From: a virus
IMG/VR virus record: IMGVR_UViG_3300020204_000447
Coordinates: 1-21,339 of that record
DNA: 21,339 nt
Reading direction: 5' to 3' (one strand)
Positions 14,385 to 18,919 of the stretch are shown here, piece after piece. Each line of letters starts with the position of its first letter. The stretch's first letter is position 1. Both the position numbers and the translations under genes were made by a program. The notes under the pieces were generated by a model. The model had not been told where the DNA came from and ran no database searches. It was given only the letters and a program-made list of their open reading frames with translations.

Positions 14385-14866
14385 GACCCATCATCAAACT
14401 AGAACCGTGGGAATACGAGTGGGCATCTCATGTCGGTGCGCGTCGATTCATAGAGAACTGGTCGAGGGACAATGCCAAGCACTACGACAGCGCGAGGATG
14501 GAAGATGACCGCACCGCACAAGTCGCCGCTTGTGTGTCGGAACTCGCAGTTGCTAAATACGCCAACAGATTCTGGTCTGGTCATGTCTGGTCACTCAAAC
14601 AACACGCTACGCATAAAGGCATGGCAGATGTCGGAGACAATATCGAGGTGAGGAGGCTGCGTACCCGAGAGAGCGCAGCGGTTCGACGGCATCAGGTTGG
14701 AAAGGGGCTTGTGCTGTTTGTGGTCAAGCCAGTGATGCCTGAACTTCGGGAGGTAGAAATTTACGGCTGGATTCAATACGACAGGGCGTGGGAGTTGGGA
14801 ACTCCGACCGACTACGACCCTGACAACACCCGTGAGATCGGTCCTGAGAATCTCAAACTTCTGTGA
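14381..14866 (+). CDS. Phage protein after primase, possible PD-(D/E)XK nuclease
   Basis: A 161-aa product starting at GTG 14381, which overlaps the primase stop (GTGA) with GGGGTG just upstream. It contains VSELAVAKYANRFWSG, then ADVGDNIEVRRLRTR, a spacing of Glu, Asp and E-x-R that resembles a restriction-like nuclease core (E...D...E-V-R), and a strand-rich GLVLFVVKP. The C-terminus ends GWIQYDRAWELG and TDYDPDNT, a common ending of such phage proteins. An endonuclease or DNA-binding role in replication fits its place, but lysine at the third catalytic site appears replaced by arginine. Confidence 0.7.
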   Translation: MRPIIKLEPWEYEWASHVGARRFIENWSRDNAKHYDSARMEDDRTAQVAACVSELAVAKYANRFWSGHVWSLKQHATHKGMADVGDNIEVRRLRTRESAAVRRHQVGKGLVLFVVKPVMPELREVEIYGWIQYDRAWELGTPTDYDPDNTREIGPENLKLL

Positions 14867-14872
14867 GAAAAA

Positions 14873-14898
14873 CCCCGACACCATGACAGGTGCCGGGG
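14873..14898. terminator. Bidirectional terminator between convergent operons
   Basis: A 10-position stem (14873-14882 with 14889-14898) with a 6-base loop. The single A-C mismatch on the plus strand becomes a U-G pair on the minus strand. Followed by T4 rightward and T5 leftward, it can end both the primase operon and the converging small-gene operon. Confidence 0.8.
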
Positions 14899-14910
14899 CT
14901 GTTTTGCTAT

Positions 14911-15084
14911 CTACTGTTTAGACGCATAATCACTCGCCCACTTCATCGCCTGATCACGAGAGCCTTTGAAATAAACGAACTCATTACCGCTCGTAAAAGC
15001 CACCCAGCGGTCTTTCCAAAAGCGACCCGGCGATGCAAACACATACACCACCGGGTTGCCTCTCTTGTCGGTGAAAGTCCTCAT
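14911..15084 (-). CDS. 57-aa protein of unknown function
   Basis: A short gene starting MRTFTDKRGNPVVYVF and ending DYASKQ. Alternating strands (VVYVF, RWVAFTSG, EFVYFKG) and a final helix look like a small folded domain. The ATG directly follows the TAA of the upstream gene with no SD site, so translation by re-initiation is likely. It is the last gene of the right-hand leftward operon, just before the terminator. Not a recognised family. Confidence 0.7.
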   Translation of the reverse strand: MRTFTDKRGNPVVYVFASPGRFWKDRWVAFTSGNEFVYFKGSRDQAMKWASDYASKQ

Positions 15085-15294
15085 TTAAAACGGAGGATCT
15101 GAGATTTCATCTTTGTCGTCTAGATCCCACCCTCCGGGGGGAACCATGATCGACTCTTCGATGCGGCTCACCTTGTCGAGCATGAGCGCGAGGTCACGTT
15201 CGATGCGAGACACTGCTTGTGCCAGTGCTACGTCATGTCGAGCCGTTGCAGCGAAGGCTTCAGCCTTCAGAAGTTCAAAGTCTGCTTCATTCAT
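15085..15294 (-). CDS. Small coiled-coil protein of unknown function
   Basis: A 69-aa product starting MNEADFELLKAEAFA. Residues about 5-50 form an amphipathic helix with heptad-like spacing (AQAVSRIERDLALMLDKVSR); the tail is Gly/Asp/Pro-rich. The ATG has AGGAG seven bases upstream and overlaps the previous gene by eight bases. Function unknown. Confidence 0.7.
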   Translation of the reverse strand: MNEADFELLKAEAFAATARHDVALAQAVSRIERDLALMLDKVSRIEESIMVPPGGWDLDDKDEISDPPF

Positions 15295-15529
15295 TGATGT
15301 TCTCCTGATGATTTTTGTATTGCTTTTCCAAATGTCTTTTTGCTTCGATCTTTGCGTTCTGATACGCAAAGAATTTGCGAGTGAGATCGTCAGCCAATTG
15401 ACTGACGGTCTTCGCATGTTGCTTGCGAATCAATTCAAACTTGTTGTTCTCTTTTTCCAACGCAACCTTGAGGAACTTGTACTCCAACTCCAACTGTAAA
15501 ACAATCGGGTCACTCACTTGATCTTCCAC
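15287..15529 (-). CDS. Helical protein of unknown function
   Basis: An 80-aa product with a long charged helix (LELEYKFLKVALEKENNKF onwards), coiled-coil-like, ending NHQENINE. GTG 15529 is chosen because GGAGG lies eight bases before it; ATG 15544 in frame is an alternative without a site. The start region overlaps the stop of the 32-aa membrane peptide by 16 bases. Confidence 0.65.
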   Translation of the reverse strand: MEDQVSDPIVLQLELEYKFLKVALEKENNKFELIRKQHAKTVSQLADDLTRKFFAYQNAKIEAKRHLEKQYKNHQENINE

Positions 15530-15612
15530 GTTGCAATCCTCCATGCGACGAACATGAACACCGAGAACACCATCATGCGTGGGAGCATGAACCAAAAGAA
15601 TTCCCAAGTCAT
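15514..15612 (-). CDS. 32-aa membrane peptide
   Basis: A tiny gene (MTWEFFWFMLPRMMVFSV, then FMFVAWRIATWKIK) that is almost entirely one hydrophobic segment with a basic end. GAGGTG lies six bases before the ATG, which overlaps the upstream stop (ATGA), exactly the junction used by its neighbours, so it is probably translated. Such phage peptides can affect the host membrane or act as lysis, exclusion or inhibitor factors; nothing identifies which. Confidence 0.65.
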   Translation of the reverse strand: MTWEFFWFMLPRMMVFSVFMFVAWRIATWKIK

Positions 15613-15830
15613 GACTGCACCTCGACATCTTTTACCTGATAGCACTCAATGAAATCGCGACCGAAGGCGCGTTCAAATCTTGCATTCGCAATTCTCTCCG
15701 CACCTGCCTCGTTGATGCCCTTGGTCACAAACCCAATATGGTCGGGCTTGCCAAAATTTGCCACAGGGTCATGCTCGTGCGGAGCAATTGCGAAAGTGAC
15801 CAGATAAGTTTTGAAGTGTTGGCTGTTCAT
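15609..15830 (-). CDS. Small phage protein of unknown function
   Basis: A 73-aa product (MNSQHFKTYLVTFAIAPHEHD start) with an N-terminal strand, a central segment GFVTKGINEAGAERIANARF and an acidic tail. The pattern looks like a small phage accessory protein; I do not recognise the family. Both ends use ATGA overlaps. Confidence 0.7.
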   Translation of the reverse strand: MNSQHFKTYLVTFAIAPHEHDPVANFGKPDHIGFVTKGINEAGAERIANARFERAFGRDFIECYQVKDVEVQS

Positions 15831-16144
15831 GCTGCGTCCCCTGTGGCTTTGGCGAGGGCGGCTCGGGCGGTGTCTAATACGCTTTCCACCTCATCGCGTG
15901 AGTCTTGATCGTCGCTTGATTCGTCACCGAACAACGGCAACGCCATCGACAACACGTTGACGCAGTTTTGTAGTGCGGTCAGCAACTCGGGGGCGGCGGC
16001 GATCAGTCGAGCGTCTGCCTCGCTCATGGGCGACGGGTCAGCGATAGTGAACCCATCTGCGTCTACGATAGTGCAATAGTTTTCTGGGGCGTCCGGTACA
16101 TTGTCCGACCAGTACCAAGGCGCGGGGGTGTGTTGAGTGGTCAT
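15827..16144 (-). CDS. Phage protein with LIAAAPELL motif, unknown function
   Basis: A 105-aa product. It begins MTTQHTPAPWYWSDN and contains ADARLIAAAPELLTALQNCV, a motif very common in uncharacterised proteins of proteobacterial phages and prophages. The first part should be beta-rich (CTIVDADGFTIADP), the second a helix. The function of this group is not known. GGAGGC sits directly before the ATG, which overlaps the previous TGA. Confidence 0.8.
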   Translation of the reverse strand: MTTQHTPAPWYWSDNVPDAPENYCTIVDADGFTIADPSPMSEADARLIAAAPELLTALQNCVNVLSMALPLFGDESSDDQDSRDEVESVLDTARAALAKATGDAA

Positions 16145-16401
16145 GCTGCCTCCGATATCACAGGTAAGGTGTCTGCCTTGGGATCGGTCGTGAACAACGC
16201 TCCGGCATCGTTGCCCTCGTCGTCGCGACTCGCCCATACCAGATGCCCGTTGTCTAAATGGATCACAACGCTGCGCCCGTACCATCCAAGTTTGTCGGCT
16301 TCCTCTTTGTCGAGGTAACGCACCGCAACGATCCTTCGACCAAGCAGTACTGATGCCGCGACTCTTGACCAATGTTCCTGTGGGTTGTTGATGGTGTTCA
16401 T
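16141..16401 (-). CDS. Small protein of unknown function
   Basis: An 86-aa product starting MNTINNPQEHW. The middle (RIVAVRYLDKEEADKLGW then VVIHLDNGHLVWASRD) looks like a small beta barrel or sheet that could bind a ligand. GGAGGC lies directly before the ATG and the overlap with the upstream stop is ATGA. No family recognised. Confidence 0.75.
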   Translation of the reverse strand: MNTINNPQEHWSRVAASVLLGRRIVAVRYLDKEEADKLGWYGRSVVIHLDNGHLVWASRDDEGNDAGALFTTDPKADTLPVISEAA

Positions 16402-16610
16402 GCTGCCTCCAAAATCTGAATGACCCTGTTCTTGCACCGGGCAACTTCAATTTCAGACAACGCCTTCGACAGGTCTTCTGCAACGGCGGTTGCCTCACTA
16501 AAACCACGCTCGTCGGATGCCGTGACTGCAAGCACAAGGGCGAGGGTCAGCGCATCTTCGGTGGTGTTGAGTTCTGGCAATTTGAGTTTGGTGAAATCTA
16601 TTTTTCTCAT
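16398..16610 (-). CDS. Small protein of unknown function
   Basis: A 70-aa product starting MRKIDFTKLKLPELN. A mainly helical body (ALTLALVLAVTASDERG, EDLSKALSEIE) follows. ATG 16610 is chosen because AGGAG (ACAGGAGA module) lies seven bases upstream; a GTG two codons earlier is too close to that site. Ends EAA, whose codons form the SD site of the next gene. Confidence 0.72.
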   Translation of the reverse strand: MRKIDFTKLKLPELNTTEDALTLALVLAVTASDERGFSEATAVAEDLSKALSEIEVARCKNRVIQILEAA

Positions 16611-16624
16611 AGTCACTCTCCTGT

Positions 16625-16804
16625 TTAAATGCTGATTGTTTTCTGATCGATGATCACGGTCACGCCCATATCCTTAATGTCGAAAAGGTTACGGGCATCA
16701 AAGGTCTTCTGACGCATGAGCGCAGCGAACTTCTGAGCAAGGTCGTTGACCGGATAGAACTTGATGCTGCCGTAGACACTACGCTGTTCCACGATGACGT
16801 TCAT
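16625..16804 (-). CDS. 59-aa protein controlled by the upstream attenuator-like RNA
   Basis: A short gene starting MNVIVEQRSVYGSIKFYPVN and ending VTVIIDQKTISI. Strand-helix-strand layout (IKFYPVN, LAQKFAALMRQKTF, VTVIIDQ) suggests a compact fold; no family recognised. AGGAG (ACAGGAGA module) lies six bases before the ATG. It is separated from the upstream gene by 148 bases, unusual here, and that gap holds the pseudoknot, leader frame and terminator-like hairpin, so its expression is probably conditional. Confidence 0.75.
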   Translation of the reverse strand: MNVIVEQRSVYGSIKFYPVNDLAQKFAALMRQKTFDARNLFDIKDMGVTVIIDQKTISI

Positions 16805-16822
16805 GTCGTTCTCCTGTGTTTT

Positions 16823-16874
16823 AAAAAATGCGTGGGTGGCTTTTAACCTTGGTTCTTACACTAGTCCCCACGCA
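16823..16874 (-). terminator. Terminator-like hairpin in the intercistronic leader
   Basis: On the minus strand TGCGTGGG (16867-16874) pairs perfectly with CCCACGCA (16829-16836) and is followed directly by six T. The 30-base loop is long but contains a small AACC/GGTT hairpin. It lies 19 bases before the start of the 59-aa gene, the usual place of an attenuator. Confidence 0.55.
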
Positions 16875-16893
16875 AACTAGTGATGCAGGACAT
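16861..16893 (-). CDS. Putative leader peptide MSCITSLRGD
   Basis: A 10-codon frame with an ideal SD site (AGGAGG, four bases before ATG). Its start codon is part of a pseudoknot stem, and its last codons run through the 5' arm of the terminator-like hairpin. A ribosome on it would block that hairpin. Too short to be judged by coding statistics; the site and placement are the evidence. Confidence 0.45.
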   Translation of the reverse strand: MSCITSLRGD

Positions 16894-16947
16894 TCAACCT
16901 CCTAGTTAGACGCGATACCCAGAATGTCCAAGCCTCTCTCGCGTCTA
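16888..16947 (-). promoter_or_regulatory. Candidate riboregulator: H-type pseudoknot over the leader start
   Basis: On the minus strand, arms occur in the order A, B, A', B'. A is the 9-base TAGACGCGA (16939-16947), pairing with 16907-16915. B is GGACATTC (16922-16929), pairing with 16888-16895. Both pairings are perfect and interleaved, so they form a pseudoknot. B' contains the ATG of the leader frame, while its AGGAGG lies in the loop. This suits a riboswitch or protein-binding switch; ligand unknown. Confidence 0.55.
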
Positions 16948-16952
16948 CTGTG

Positions 16953-17192
16953 TCAATGTTGCGAAGTATAGTCTTGCAGTTGTGAAGTTGTCAACTCTTC
17001 ACGTTCCAAACTTTCGCTCTCCTCTTCGCATACGGGTTCAAACTCCATGCTTTCGCAGTAGGGACAGACCTCGCCCTCAAAGAGGGTGATCCATTCCCGC
17101 CCGATCCCGTAGTCAATAACTTCGCGTTCGCAGATGAACTCTGGTTCATCAAACTCGCACTCGCAGTTGCTGCACCTGTATTCGTTTTTCAT
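16953..17192 (-). CDS. Small zinc-ribbon-like acidic protein
   Basis: A 79-aa product with two cysteine pairs, C7/C10 (CSNC) and C43/C46 (CPYC), as in zinc ribbons, and a very acidic tail (EPVCEEESESLEREE). Such proteins often bind nucleic acid or partner proteins. ATG 17192 is preferred since it overlaps the upstream TGA (ATGA); the SD site is distant. It is the last gene before the riboregulatory gap. Confidence 0.75.
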   Translation of the reverse strand: MKNEYRCSNCECEFDEPEFICEREVIDYGIGREWITLFEGEVCPYCESMEFEPVCEEESESLEREELTTSQLQDYTSQH

Positions 17193-17414: not shown

Positions 17415-17612
17415 TCACGCCTCCTCGATGTCCATCTCGCTATAGTCTGCTACGCCGATGTCGTAGCCCTGTTTGTAAGCAAGACGAATCTCTTCGCTCC
17501 ATGCATCTACGGCGTCTTGGCTCTCCTCGTTGCCGAATGTCCGTCCATCGTAGTATCCGCGAGCGAACCAATACGCTTCTTTTCTGGTTAGGTCGTTATT
17601 CATAGATCTCAT
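17415..17612 (-). CDS. Small phage protein of unknown function
   Basis: A 65-aa product with EAYWFARGYYDGR and RLAYKQGYDIGVADY, a repeated aromatic/Gly pattern often seen in small uncharacterised phage proteins. The two segments look like imperfect internal repeats (ARGYYDG and KQGYDIG). GGAG lies eight bases before the ATG, which overlaps the PAPS-reductase-like stop (ATGA). Confidence 0.75.
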   Translation of the reverse strand: MRSMNNDLTRKEAYWFARGYYDGRTFGNEESQDAVDAWSEEIRLAYKQGYDIGVADYSEMDIEEA

Positions 17613-18340
17613 GATTGCACTCCTTGGGCTACTTCAGCCCAACTAAAATTGCGACCTAAACCTTTGATCGTTTTCAATCCACGCTCACGCGCCAGTTCTT
17701 CCATCTGCAAGGCACGGGCGTAGAGATCGGGATGCCGCTCACGCAGATCGGCAATCTCTTCGCGCTTTGACGCTGGGCAATGGAAGCAAGACGATTTCGC
17801 CGGGATGGGCAACCCTGCCGCAGCGATCTCAGTCTTGCAGCGGTCACGATCCCAGCCCCACTCAATGAGTGGAAACCGATTGCGATAGCCATCAGCAGCC
17901 TTGCCTTCAGCCTTGAACCGTCGAACAGAATCTCGCGGCCCTGCGTCATAGCCCACGCATTGCACAACATCCTGACCACGCGACCATGCAATCTGCGCGG
18001 GAACCCAGTTCTTAATGAACTTGCGTTGCGGATCGATCTTCCAGACGATGCTGCATTGGTGCTGACCATACGCAAGCGCAGGGAGAACACGATTTCTCAT
18101 GCACGATTCCGACAGGCTCTTGTCGTTGCTCTTGGGTCGCGGATTCTTTACGACCGTGACGCAAGGGAATCCAACTTTGTCGAGCCATGCGTTAATGATC
18201 GGAAGGTACGCATACGTCTCTGGCTTCTCGTCGCCCGTGTCTGCGAATAAGATCAGATCGGGACGTTCGCCACGCTGCTGCATTCCGACAAGCATGGCAG
18301 TCGAATCGACTCCCATGCCGTAAGCGACAACTGTAGTCAT
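17609..18340 (-). CDS. PAPS reductase-like PP-loop ATPase
   Basis: A 243-aa enzyme of the PP-loop/PAPS reductase family. The nucleotide-binding loop YGMGVDSTAML is at residues 7-17, followed by LILFADTGDEKPET and, further on, a C-terminal cysteine pair (SSCFHCPASKREE) like those that carry iron-sulfur clusters in DndC and related proteins. In cells this fold reduces PAPS or activates sulfur; phage copies are proposed to act in sulfur transfer, base modification or defence evasion, and which applies here is not shown. GGAG lies eight bases before ATG 18340. It sits two genes after an ArdC-like protein, supporting a counter-defence module. Confidence 0.85.
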   Translation of the reverse strand: MTTVVAYGMGVDSTAMLVGMQQRGERPDLILFADTGDEKPETYAYLPIINAWLDKVGFPCVTVVKNPRPKSNDKSLSESCMRNRVLPALAYGQHQCSIVWKIDPQRKFIKNWVPAQIAWSRGQDVVQCVGYDAGPRDSVRRFKAEGKAADGYRNRFPLIEWGWDRDRCKTEIAAAGLPIPAKSSCFHCPASKREEIADLRERHPDLYARALQMEELARERGLKTIKGLGRNFSWAEVAQGVQS

Positions 18341-18357
18341 GTTATCTCCAAATTGAG

Positions 18358-18426
18358 TTGACGCGATAGCGCGTCTCATAGCGCACCCCACCAGCGGATG
18401 CGCTACAAGCCGAGTTATCAGGCTGC
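18358..18426 (-). repeat. 69-bp repeated hairpin element, copy 1
   Basis: Aligns without gaps with 18851-18919, 61 of 69 identical. On the minus strand it forms TAGCGCATCC/GGGGTGCGCTA-type and GACGCG/CGCGTC hairpins. It lies between the 125-aa gene and the PAPS-reductase-like gene, ending 17 bases before that ATG. Confidence 0.85.
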
Positions 18427-18850: not shown

Positions 18851-18919
18851 TCGACGCAATAGCGCGTCCCATAGCGCACCCCATCAGCGGGTGCGCTACA
18901 GGCCGGGTTATCAGGCGGC
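18851..18919 (-). repeat. 69-bp repeated hairpin element, copy 2
   Basis: Contains a perfect 10-bp hairpin (TAGCGCACCC with GGGTGCGCTA) and GACGCG pairing with TGCGTC through one G-U on the minus strand. It includes the stop codon of the ardC-like gene and ends 22 bases before the next ATG. Confidence 0.85.

Follow-up and report, generated by a model that had tools for sequence, protein, structure and literature searches.

The stretch of DNA analysed here (the window) comprises 21,339 nucleotides of a viral record (IMG/VR IMGVR_UViG_3300020204_000447, positions 1 to 21,339). We focus on its minus strand between a zinc-ribbon-like gene and a gene encoding a protein of 59 amino acids (16625-16804), where a promoter is followed by a short segment containing perfect inverted repeats, a small reading frame and a run of six T. 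The promoter is of the sigma-70 type (TTGACA-18-TATACT, 16965-16994, minus strand) and matches the consensus at 11 of 12 positions. It belongs to a block conserved in related phages, in that the -10 region and the adjoining CAACATYGAnnCAG are kept in about ten distinct related sequences, and it would be expected to start RNA synthesis near position 16958. In most of the relatives that have this promoter (L006, L007, L012, L047 and others) a GC-rich inverted repeat (GGCGGC...GCCGCC), which resembles a terminator of the preceding operon, stands just before it; in the window the promoter is instead located within the 3'-terminal part of the zinc-ribbon-like gene.

In about ten distinct relatives the first gene begins within about 25 nt of the conserved promoter block (CAACATCGAnnCAGGAG...ATG). 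In the window alone, this leader is split by 134 nt (16814-16947, minus strand, as delimited by comparison of the promoter blocks) placed between ACACAG and GAG, and ACACAG is found at either end. The left copy (16948-16953) is the end of the ancestral leader CAACATTGACACAG, which in the relatives goes straight on with GGAG...ATG, and the right copy (16819-16814) is counted as part of the insert. Because the promoter of the relatives runs directly into their first gene, the sequence comparison indicates that the element is an insert in a short conserved phage leader. It lies on the transcribed strand and occupies a slot whose small genes vary among the relatives. It is placed exactly between the presumed RNA start and the Shine-Dalgarno sequence of the downstream gene, beginning about 11 nt from the former. 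The segment 16806-16960 has no blastn homology to any fetched relative.

Read down the minus strand from 16994, the promoter and CAACATTGACACAG are followed by TAGACGCGA (S1, 16939-16947), GAGAGGCTT, GGACATTC (S2, 16922-16929), TGGGTA, TCGCGTCTA (S1', 16907-16915), ACTAGGAGGTT, GAATGTCC (S2', 16888-16895), TGCAT, CACTAGT (strand B, 16876-16882), T, TGCGTGGG (T5, 16867-16874), G, ACTAGTG (strand C, 16859-16865), an A-rich stretch of 22 nt, CCCACGCA (T3, 16829-16836), TTTTTT (16823-16828), AAAACACAGGAGAACGAC and the ATG that opens the 59-aa gene. S1 pairs perfectly with S1' over 9 bp, and S2 with S2' over 8 bp; the two repeats interleave exactly as an original prediction, made from the sequence alone, had described them. 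With loops of 9, 6 and 11 nt, which are sterically allowed, the two stems have at the sequence level the layout of an H-type pseudoknot (pseudoknot 1). Loop 3 contains the Shine-Dalgarno sequence AGGAGG (16898-16903), and after a spacing of 4 nt a putative leader frame of 10 codons opens (ATG TCC TGC ATC ACT AGT TTG CGT GGG GAC TAG, 16861-16893, minus strand, encoding MSCITSLRGD). Its ATG, at 16893, lies in the 3' arm of the second stem, again as proposed, and its TAG occupies 16863-16861. The frame shows no run of one codon and no other recognisable stall signal. Its codons TTG CGT GGG are the 5' arm of the terminator described below, and a ribosome near the stop codon would cover TGCGTGGG, in agreement with the original prediction. 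A short frame with a ribosome-binding site that overlaps regulatory stems is characteristic of leader-peptide attenuators.

The 7-bp pairing of CACTAGT with ACTAGTG and the 8-bp pairing of TGCGTGGG with CCCACGCA, the latter followed directly by T6, were likewise located at exactly the positions proposed for them. The 8-bp stem, with 6 G-C pairs ahead of T6, has the form of an intrinsic (Rho-independent) terminator, and the predicted 3' end of the RNA lies at the T tract. The terminator loop, when CACTAGT and ACTAGTG are unpaired, is 30 nt long, which is longer than typical and is the reason why a standard scan for terminators (loops of 3-8 nt) misses it. These last two hairpins had been thought to exclude each other, and this claim fails: their arms are disjoint and have no base in common, and so the mutually exclusive terminator and antiterminator of a leader-peptide attenuator are not found among the two. 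The hairpins are instead interleaved, with a loop 1 of 1 nt, a junction of 1 nt and a loop 3 of 22 nt, and as read from the sequence this is the topology of a second H-type pseudoknot (pseudoknot 2), of which CACTAGT and ACTAGTG form stem 1 and the two terminator arms stem 2. In a nested fold the CACTAGT hairpin gains two further pairs that reach into the terminator arm, and the resulting competition is only partial.

No further sigma-70-type promoter for the downstream genes was detected in 14800-16965. Consequently, these genes would depend on read-through of T6, whether from the promoter described above or from upstream. As full termination there would leave them silent, any stop at T6 has to be leaky or conditional.

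Truly exclusive pairings exist elsewhere in the element. A strand AACTAG (strand A, 16902-16907, minus strand) can pair with CTAGTT (16880-16875), and this pairing competes with that of CACTAGT and ACTAGTG; either of the two leaves the terminator arms free. In nested folds of transcripts of 85, 130 and 136 nt the pair probability of AACTAG with CTAGTT is 0.73-0.75. Modelled on a growing transcript, again with nested pairs, AACTAG/CTAGTT would form first (85 nt), CACTAGT/ACTAGTG next (100-120 nt) and the terminator at 130 nt. Stem 1 of pseudoknot 1 is stable in every computed fold (probability 1.00), and the Shine-Dalgarno sequence pairs locally in the nested fold. The stacking energies of the stems are about -17.6 and -14.4 kcal/mol for pseudoknot 1 and about -11.5 and -18.3 kcal/mol for pseudoknot 2, and the best nested folds of the two regions reach -18.6 and -15.3 kcal/mol, respectively. 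Before any pseudoknot penalty, the stacking sum of pseudoknot 2 thus exceeds the nested -15.3 kcal/mol. Once a penalty is paid, which we estimate ourselves at about 10 kcal/mol plus loop terms, pseudoknot 2 and the nested fold come out close, and S1/S2 are likewise close to a rival G-U-rich hairpin inside the S1 loop. In this model the stem energies are sufficient for both pseudoknots, and the formation of each is plausible.

The search for other copies of the element covered several collections. The element was not seen in any of 26 loci encoding relatives of the 59-aa gene found by a single-sequence search, nor in 45 found by a profile search that largely re-finds the same viral contigs. Since these relatives do not contain the element, they neither keep nor break its stems, and with no relative carrying it neither covariation nor conservation supports the structure. 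Two exact-pattern scans of IMG/VR viral contigs gave no match; a third gave one (L002), which was set aside as chance, as it falls within a reading frame of a coding region in an unrelated contig of 607 kb. A pattern scan of GTDB contigs and a blastn search against phages (E<=10) were negative, and blastn against plasmids gave only two weak partial matches (E=5 over 24% of the query). Complete records of 30 loci with relatives of either neighbouring gene yielded only one match of 15 nt (E=0.03). Scans of all fetched loci for the pseudoknots and stems did not reveal a second copy, and what they returned were coincidences in low-complexity or coding sequence; in loci found through the upstream zinc-ribbon gene the element does not follow that gene. 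The Rfam 15 covariance models gave no match at the gathering score in the window and none at E<=5 in 16750-17050. Two known kinds of pseudoknotted RNA were considered and rejected. A tmRNA, where pseudoknots surround a short tag frame, was not found by ARAGORN; a type III antitoxin was dismissed because 16800-16960 contains no tandem repeat and no toxin family match lies downstream.

The 59-aa protein is predicted to adopt a beta-beta-alpha-alpha-beta fold (AlphaFold mean pLDDT 88). Significant matches in a fold search are confined to unnamed viral proteins, with nothing significant in the PDB, and by sequence it matches a protein of a Pelagibacter phage and one from another phage. There is no Pfam, PHROG or PADLOC match, and with its function unassigned the downstream gene gives no hint of a signal; a GTDB search with the profile of the protein found no relative and hence no pointer to a host. 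The blastn homology of the compared relatives to the window reaches as far as the start codon of the 59-aa gene, give or take one base, and the sequence upstream differs from phage to phage, a pattern indicating that these phage genomes are shuffled at gene starts. The early region of the window, on the same strand, also contains an ArdC-like anti-restriction protein with a metallopeptidase domain (PF08401, PF18818; 18914-19795) and a PAPS-reductase-family gene (17612-18391). Two directly repeated copies of about 67 nt, with 89.6% identity, occur at 18853-18919 and at about 18360-18426, ahead of or between minus-strand genes.

A second structured RNA of the window (20628-20433, minus strand) lies between the terminase small subunit gene and the early operon, directly before the first early genes. 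It consists of a core of 158 positions with 39 modelled pairs and a 3' hairpin. A cmsearch with the core model matches 40 of 70 sources at 90 to 185 bits, a count that includes the 14 matched sequences from which the model was built and several sources overlapping the same contig. In 22 distinct sequences, aligned by fitting to the model, 99% of pair cells are kept and 8 pairs are changed on both sides, and neither shuffles nor slid versions come near these measures. RNAalifold applied to an independent MAFFT alignment of 14 sequences finds 54 pairs, of which 13 show double changes. Rfam gives no match to this RNA, not even at E<=5, and 50,697 phage records contain only one weak match of 43 nt. 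Examples among the relatives are L015:741-897, L073:2809-2964, L010:957-1111 and L069:4904-5060; L073 and L082 have an RNA of this type directly before the 59-aa gene, and L007, L012, L013 and L035 have a shortened form (102 nt). A promoter-like TTGACT-17-TAGAGT precedes it (20718-20690, minus strand), and around this promoter several relatives have a motif resembling GTGGTCATGTAA, possibly an operator. In contrast to the tandem-pseudoknot element, the 20.5-kb RNA has comparative support. The two are unrelated, and the complementarity of the element to the 20.5-kb RNA is no better than that of shuffled sequences (-79.6 compared to a mean of -77.3).

The reading that we prefer, with a probability of roughly 0.4, is that the element is a leader with a leaky or conditional terminator that releases a structured RNA of ~136 nt and permits read-through into the 59-aa gene. 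RNA polymerase would start near 16958, and the RNA would fold into two successive H-type pseudoknots. Transcription would tend to end at T6 (16823), yielding the ~136-nt RNA, and some or all of the time polymerase would continue past T6 to transcribe the 59-aa gene and the small genes that follow. The regulatory handle is likely to be translation of the 10-codon frame, with the leader ATG held in stem 2 of pseudoknot 1 and the Shine-Dalgarno sequence in its loop 3. A ribosome that enters the frame and stops at TAG would cover the 5' terminator arm and favour read-through. When pseudoknot 1 is closed and no ribosome is present, pseudoknot 2 or the plain terminator hairpin would form and transcription would stop. 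The earlier proposal that the pseudoknot could set expression of the downstream gene is partly supported: a promoter precedes the element, the stems exceed chance, and the terminator-like stem with T6 is found on the transcribed strand only, but pseudoknot 1 and the terminator have no base in common. We infer that pseudoknot 1 could affect the terminator only via the leader frame or the AACTAG strand.

The same anatomy would suit a stand-alone small RNA gene, whose ~136-nt product would be carried as cargo and have a function in trans, such as that of a decoy or regulator, with read-through into the 59-aa gene being incidental. The slot between the promoter and the 59-aa gene is variable in the relatives and holds changing small genes there, the element has no homology to any gene of the slot, and pseudo-ToxI of phage PhiTE (PMC3475682) is a precedent for a phage-encoded pseudoknot RNA as cargo. 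Such a gene would, however, leave the downstream genes without a promoter, and it does not account for the good Shine-Dalgarno sequence and frame inside the element, which moreover has neither antitoxin-type internal repeats nor an Rfam match. We regard a stand-alone RNA gene as less likely than the terminator leader and as its main rival.

How much of the anatomy could be coincidence was assessed with 400 dinucleotide-preserving shuffles of the strand. The element could be ordinary punctuation, a simple terminator for upstream transcripts accompanied by coincidental or decayed pseudoknot pairs and frame; in favour of this, it is an orphan sequence and the nearby genome is shuffled at gene starts. 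The nested folding of the region is also unexceptional (z = -1.18), and one interleaved pair totalling at least 17 bp turns up in 8% of the shuffles of a single strand. The motif AGGAGG-N4-9-ATG occurs 3 times on the real strand and 0.53 times per shuffle, for which reason the leader frame alone is weak evidence. None of the 400 shuffles, however, contains two neighbouring perfect interleaved pairs, each of at least 7/7, no more than 30 nt apart, and an 8-bp GC-containing stem that immediately precedes T6, with a loop no longer than about 40 nt, arises at only 0.005 per shuffled strand. The signal lies in the interleaved stems and the terminator and not in the overall folding energy. In addition, it would be wasteful to punctuate behind the promoter instead of ahead of it, and in most relatives with the promoter the GC-rich inverted repeat precedes it. 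Punctuation combined with chance is an improbable account.

A protective or insulating 5' structure, whose stems shield the early mRNA from RNases or give a ribosome standby site while the terminator is weak, would fit the position of the element about 11 nt from the predicted RNA start and the stability of stem 1 in every computed fold. It would require neither the second interleaved pair nor T6, which are the parts least likely to arise by chance, and we consider it rather improbable. A DNA-level element, in which the inverted repeats serve as binding sites or a small mobile DNA has duplicated a 6-bp target, would explain the ACACAG on both flanks and the clean insertion relative to the relatives, but it is very improbable given that there are no terminal inverted repeats and no second copy in the window or the fetched loci, that ACACAGGAG resembles the usual Shine-Dalgarno context of these phages and the ACACAG repeat may accordingly be chance, and that the strand-specific T6 favours RNA.

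The terminator leader that we prefer can be compared with several known systems. In preQ1-I and similar H-type riboswitches a pseudoknot lies near the terminator in the leader. The element resembles preQ1-I in this proximity and differs in that its pseudoknot 1 shares no bases with the terminator and in that it has no Rfam match. In attenuators of the trp/his type a short frame overlaps one arm of a terminator and alternative pairings exist. The mgtCBR leader-peptide attenuator (PMC3641672) follows the same plan, with a short frame over a terminator arm and alternative pairings. The frame of the element likewise overlaps a terminator arm and alternative pairings are present; unlike these attenuators, the element lacks a codon run in its leader peptide, has a pseudoknot at the start codon of the leader frame, and ends in two hairpins that are compatible with each other.

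The S. meliloti SAM-II leaders are a close functional analogue of the proposed terminator leader. In the metA and metZ leaders of Sinorhizobium meliloti (PMC9373788) a pseudoknot is predicted to control an early AUG, and a downstream terminator yields both an sRNA and a read-through mRNA. The likeness consists in an H-type pseudoknot in the 5' leader that occludes an early ribosome-binding site and is followed by a terminator; unlike SAM-II, the element has no Rfam match, two tandem pseudoknots, no known ligand and a phage gene downstream. Type III toxin-antitoxin loci (ToxI and CptI, PMC5086642), together with the pseudoknot RNAs by which phages mimic type III antitoxins (pseudo-ToxI, PMC3475682), share with the element the succession of promoter, H-type pseudoknot RNA, terminator and downstream gene. 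In CptI the pseudoknot combines a loop 1 of a single base with a long second loop rich in A (PMC5086642), and the predicted pseudoknot 2 of the element does so as well. The element differs from type III systems in that its two pseudoknots are not repeats of each other and in that the 59-aa protein has no match to a ToxN, CptN or TenpN toxin (Pfam, PADLOC).

In the literature searched we found no description of a tandem-pseudoknot leader whose second knot is the terminator. A more far-reaching view, which we regard as speculative and improbable, is that the element represents a previously undescribed class of RNA in phages. Two tandem pseudoknots linked to a promoter, the second of them being the terminator itself, would make up a cassette inserted in a variable cargo slot; through the start codon of the leader frame this cassette would sense translation or a ligand, and the structured small RNA that it releases might serve as a counter-defence decoy. 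If the preferred reading is correct, a tandem-pseudoknot RNA, with its second knot also acting as terminator, would gate an early operon of this phage. The empty leaders of the relatives provide a ready-made control for this arrangement, and the variable slot behind the conserved promoter would then be able to accept an RNA cassette in place of a gene.
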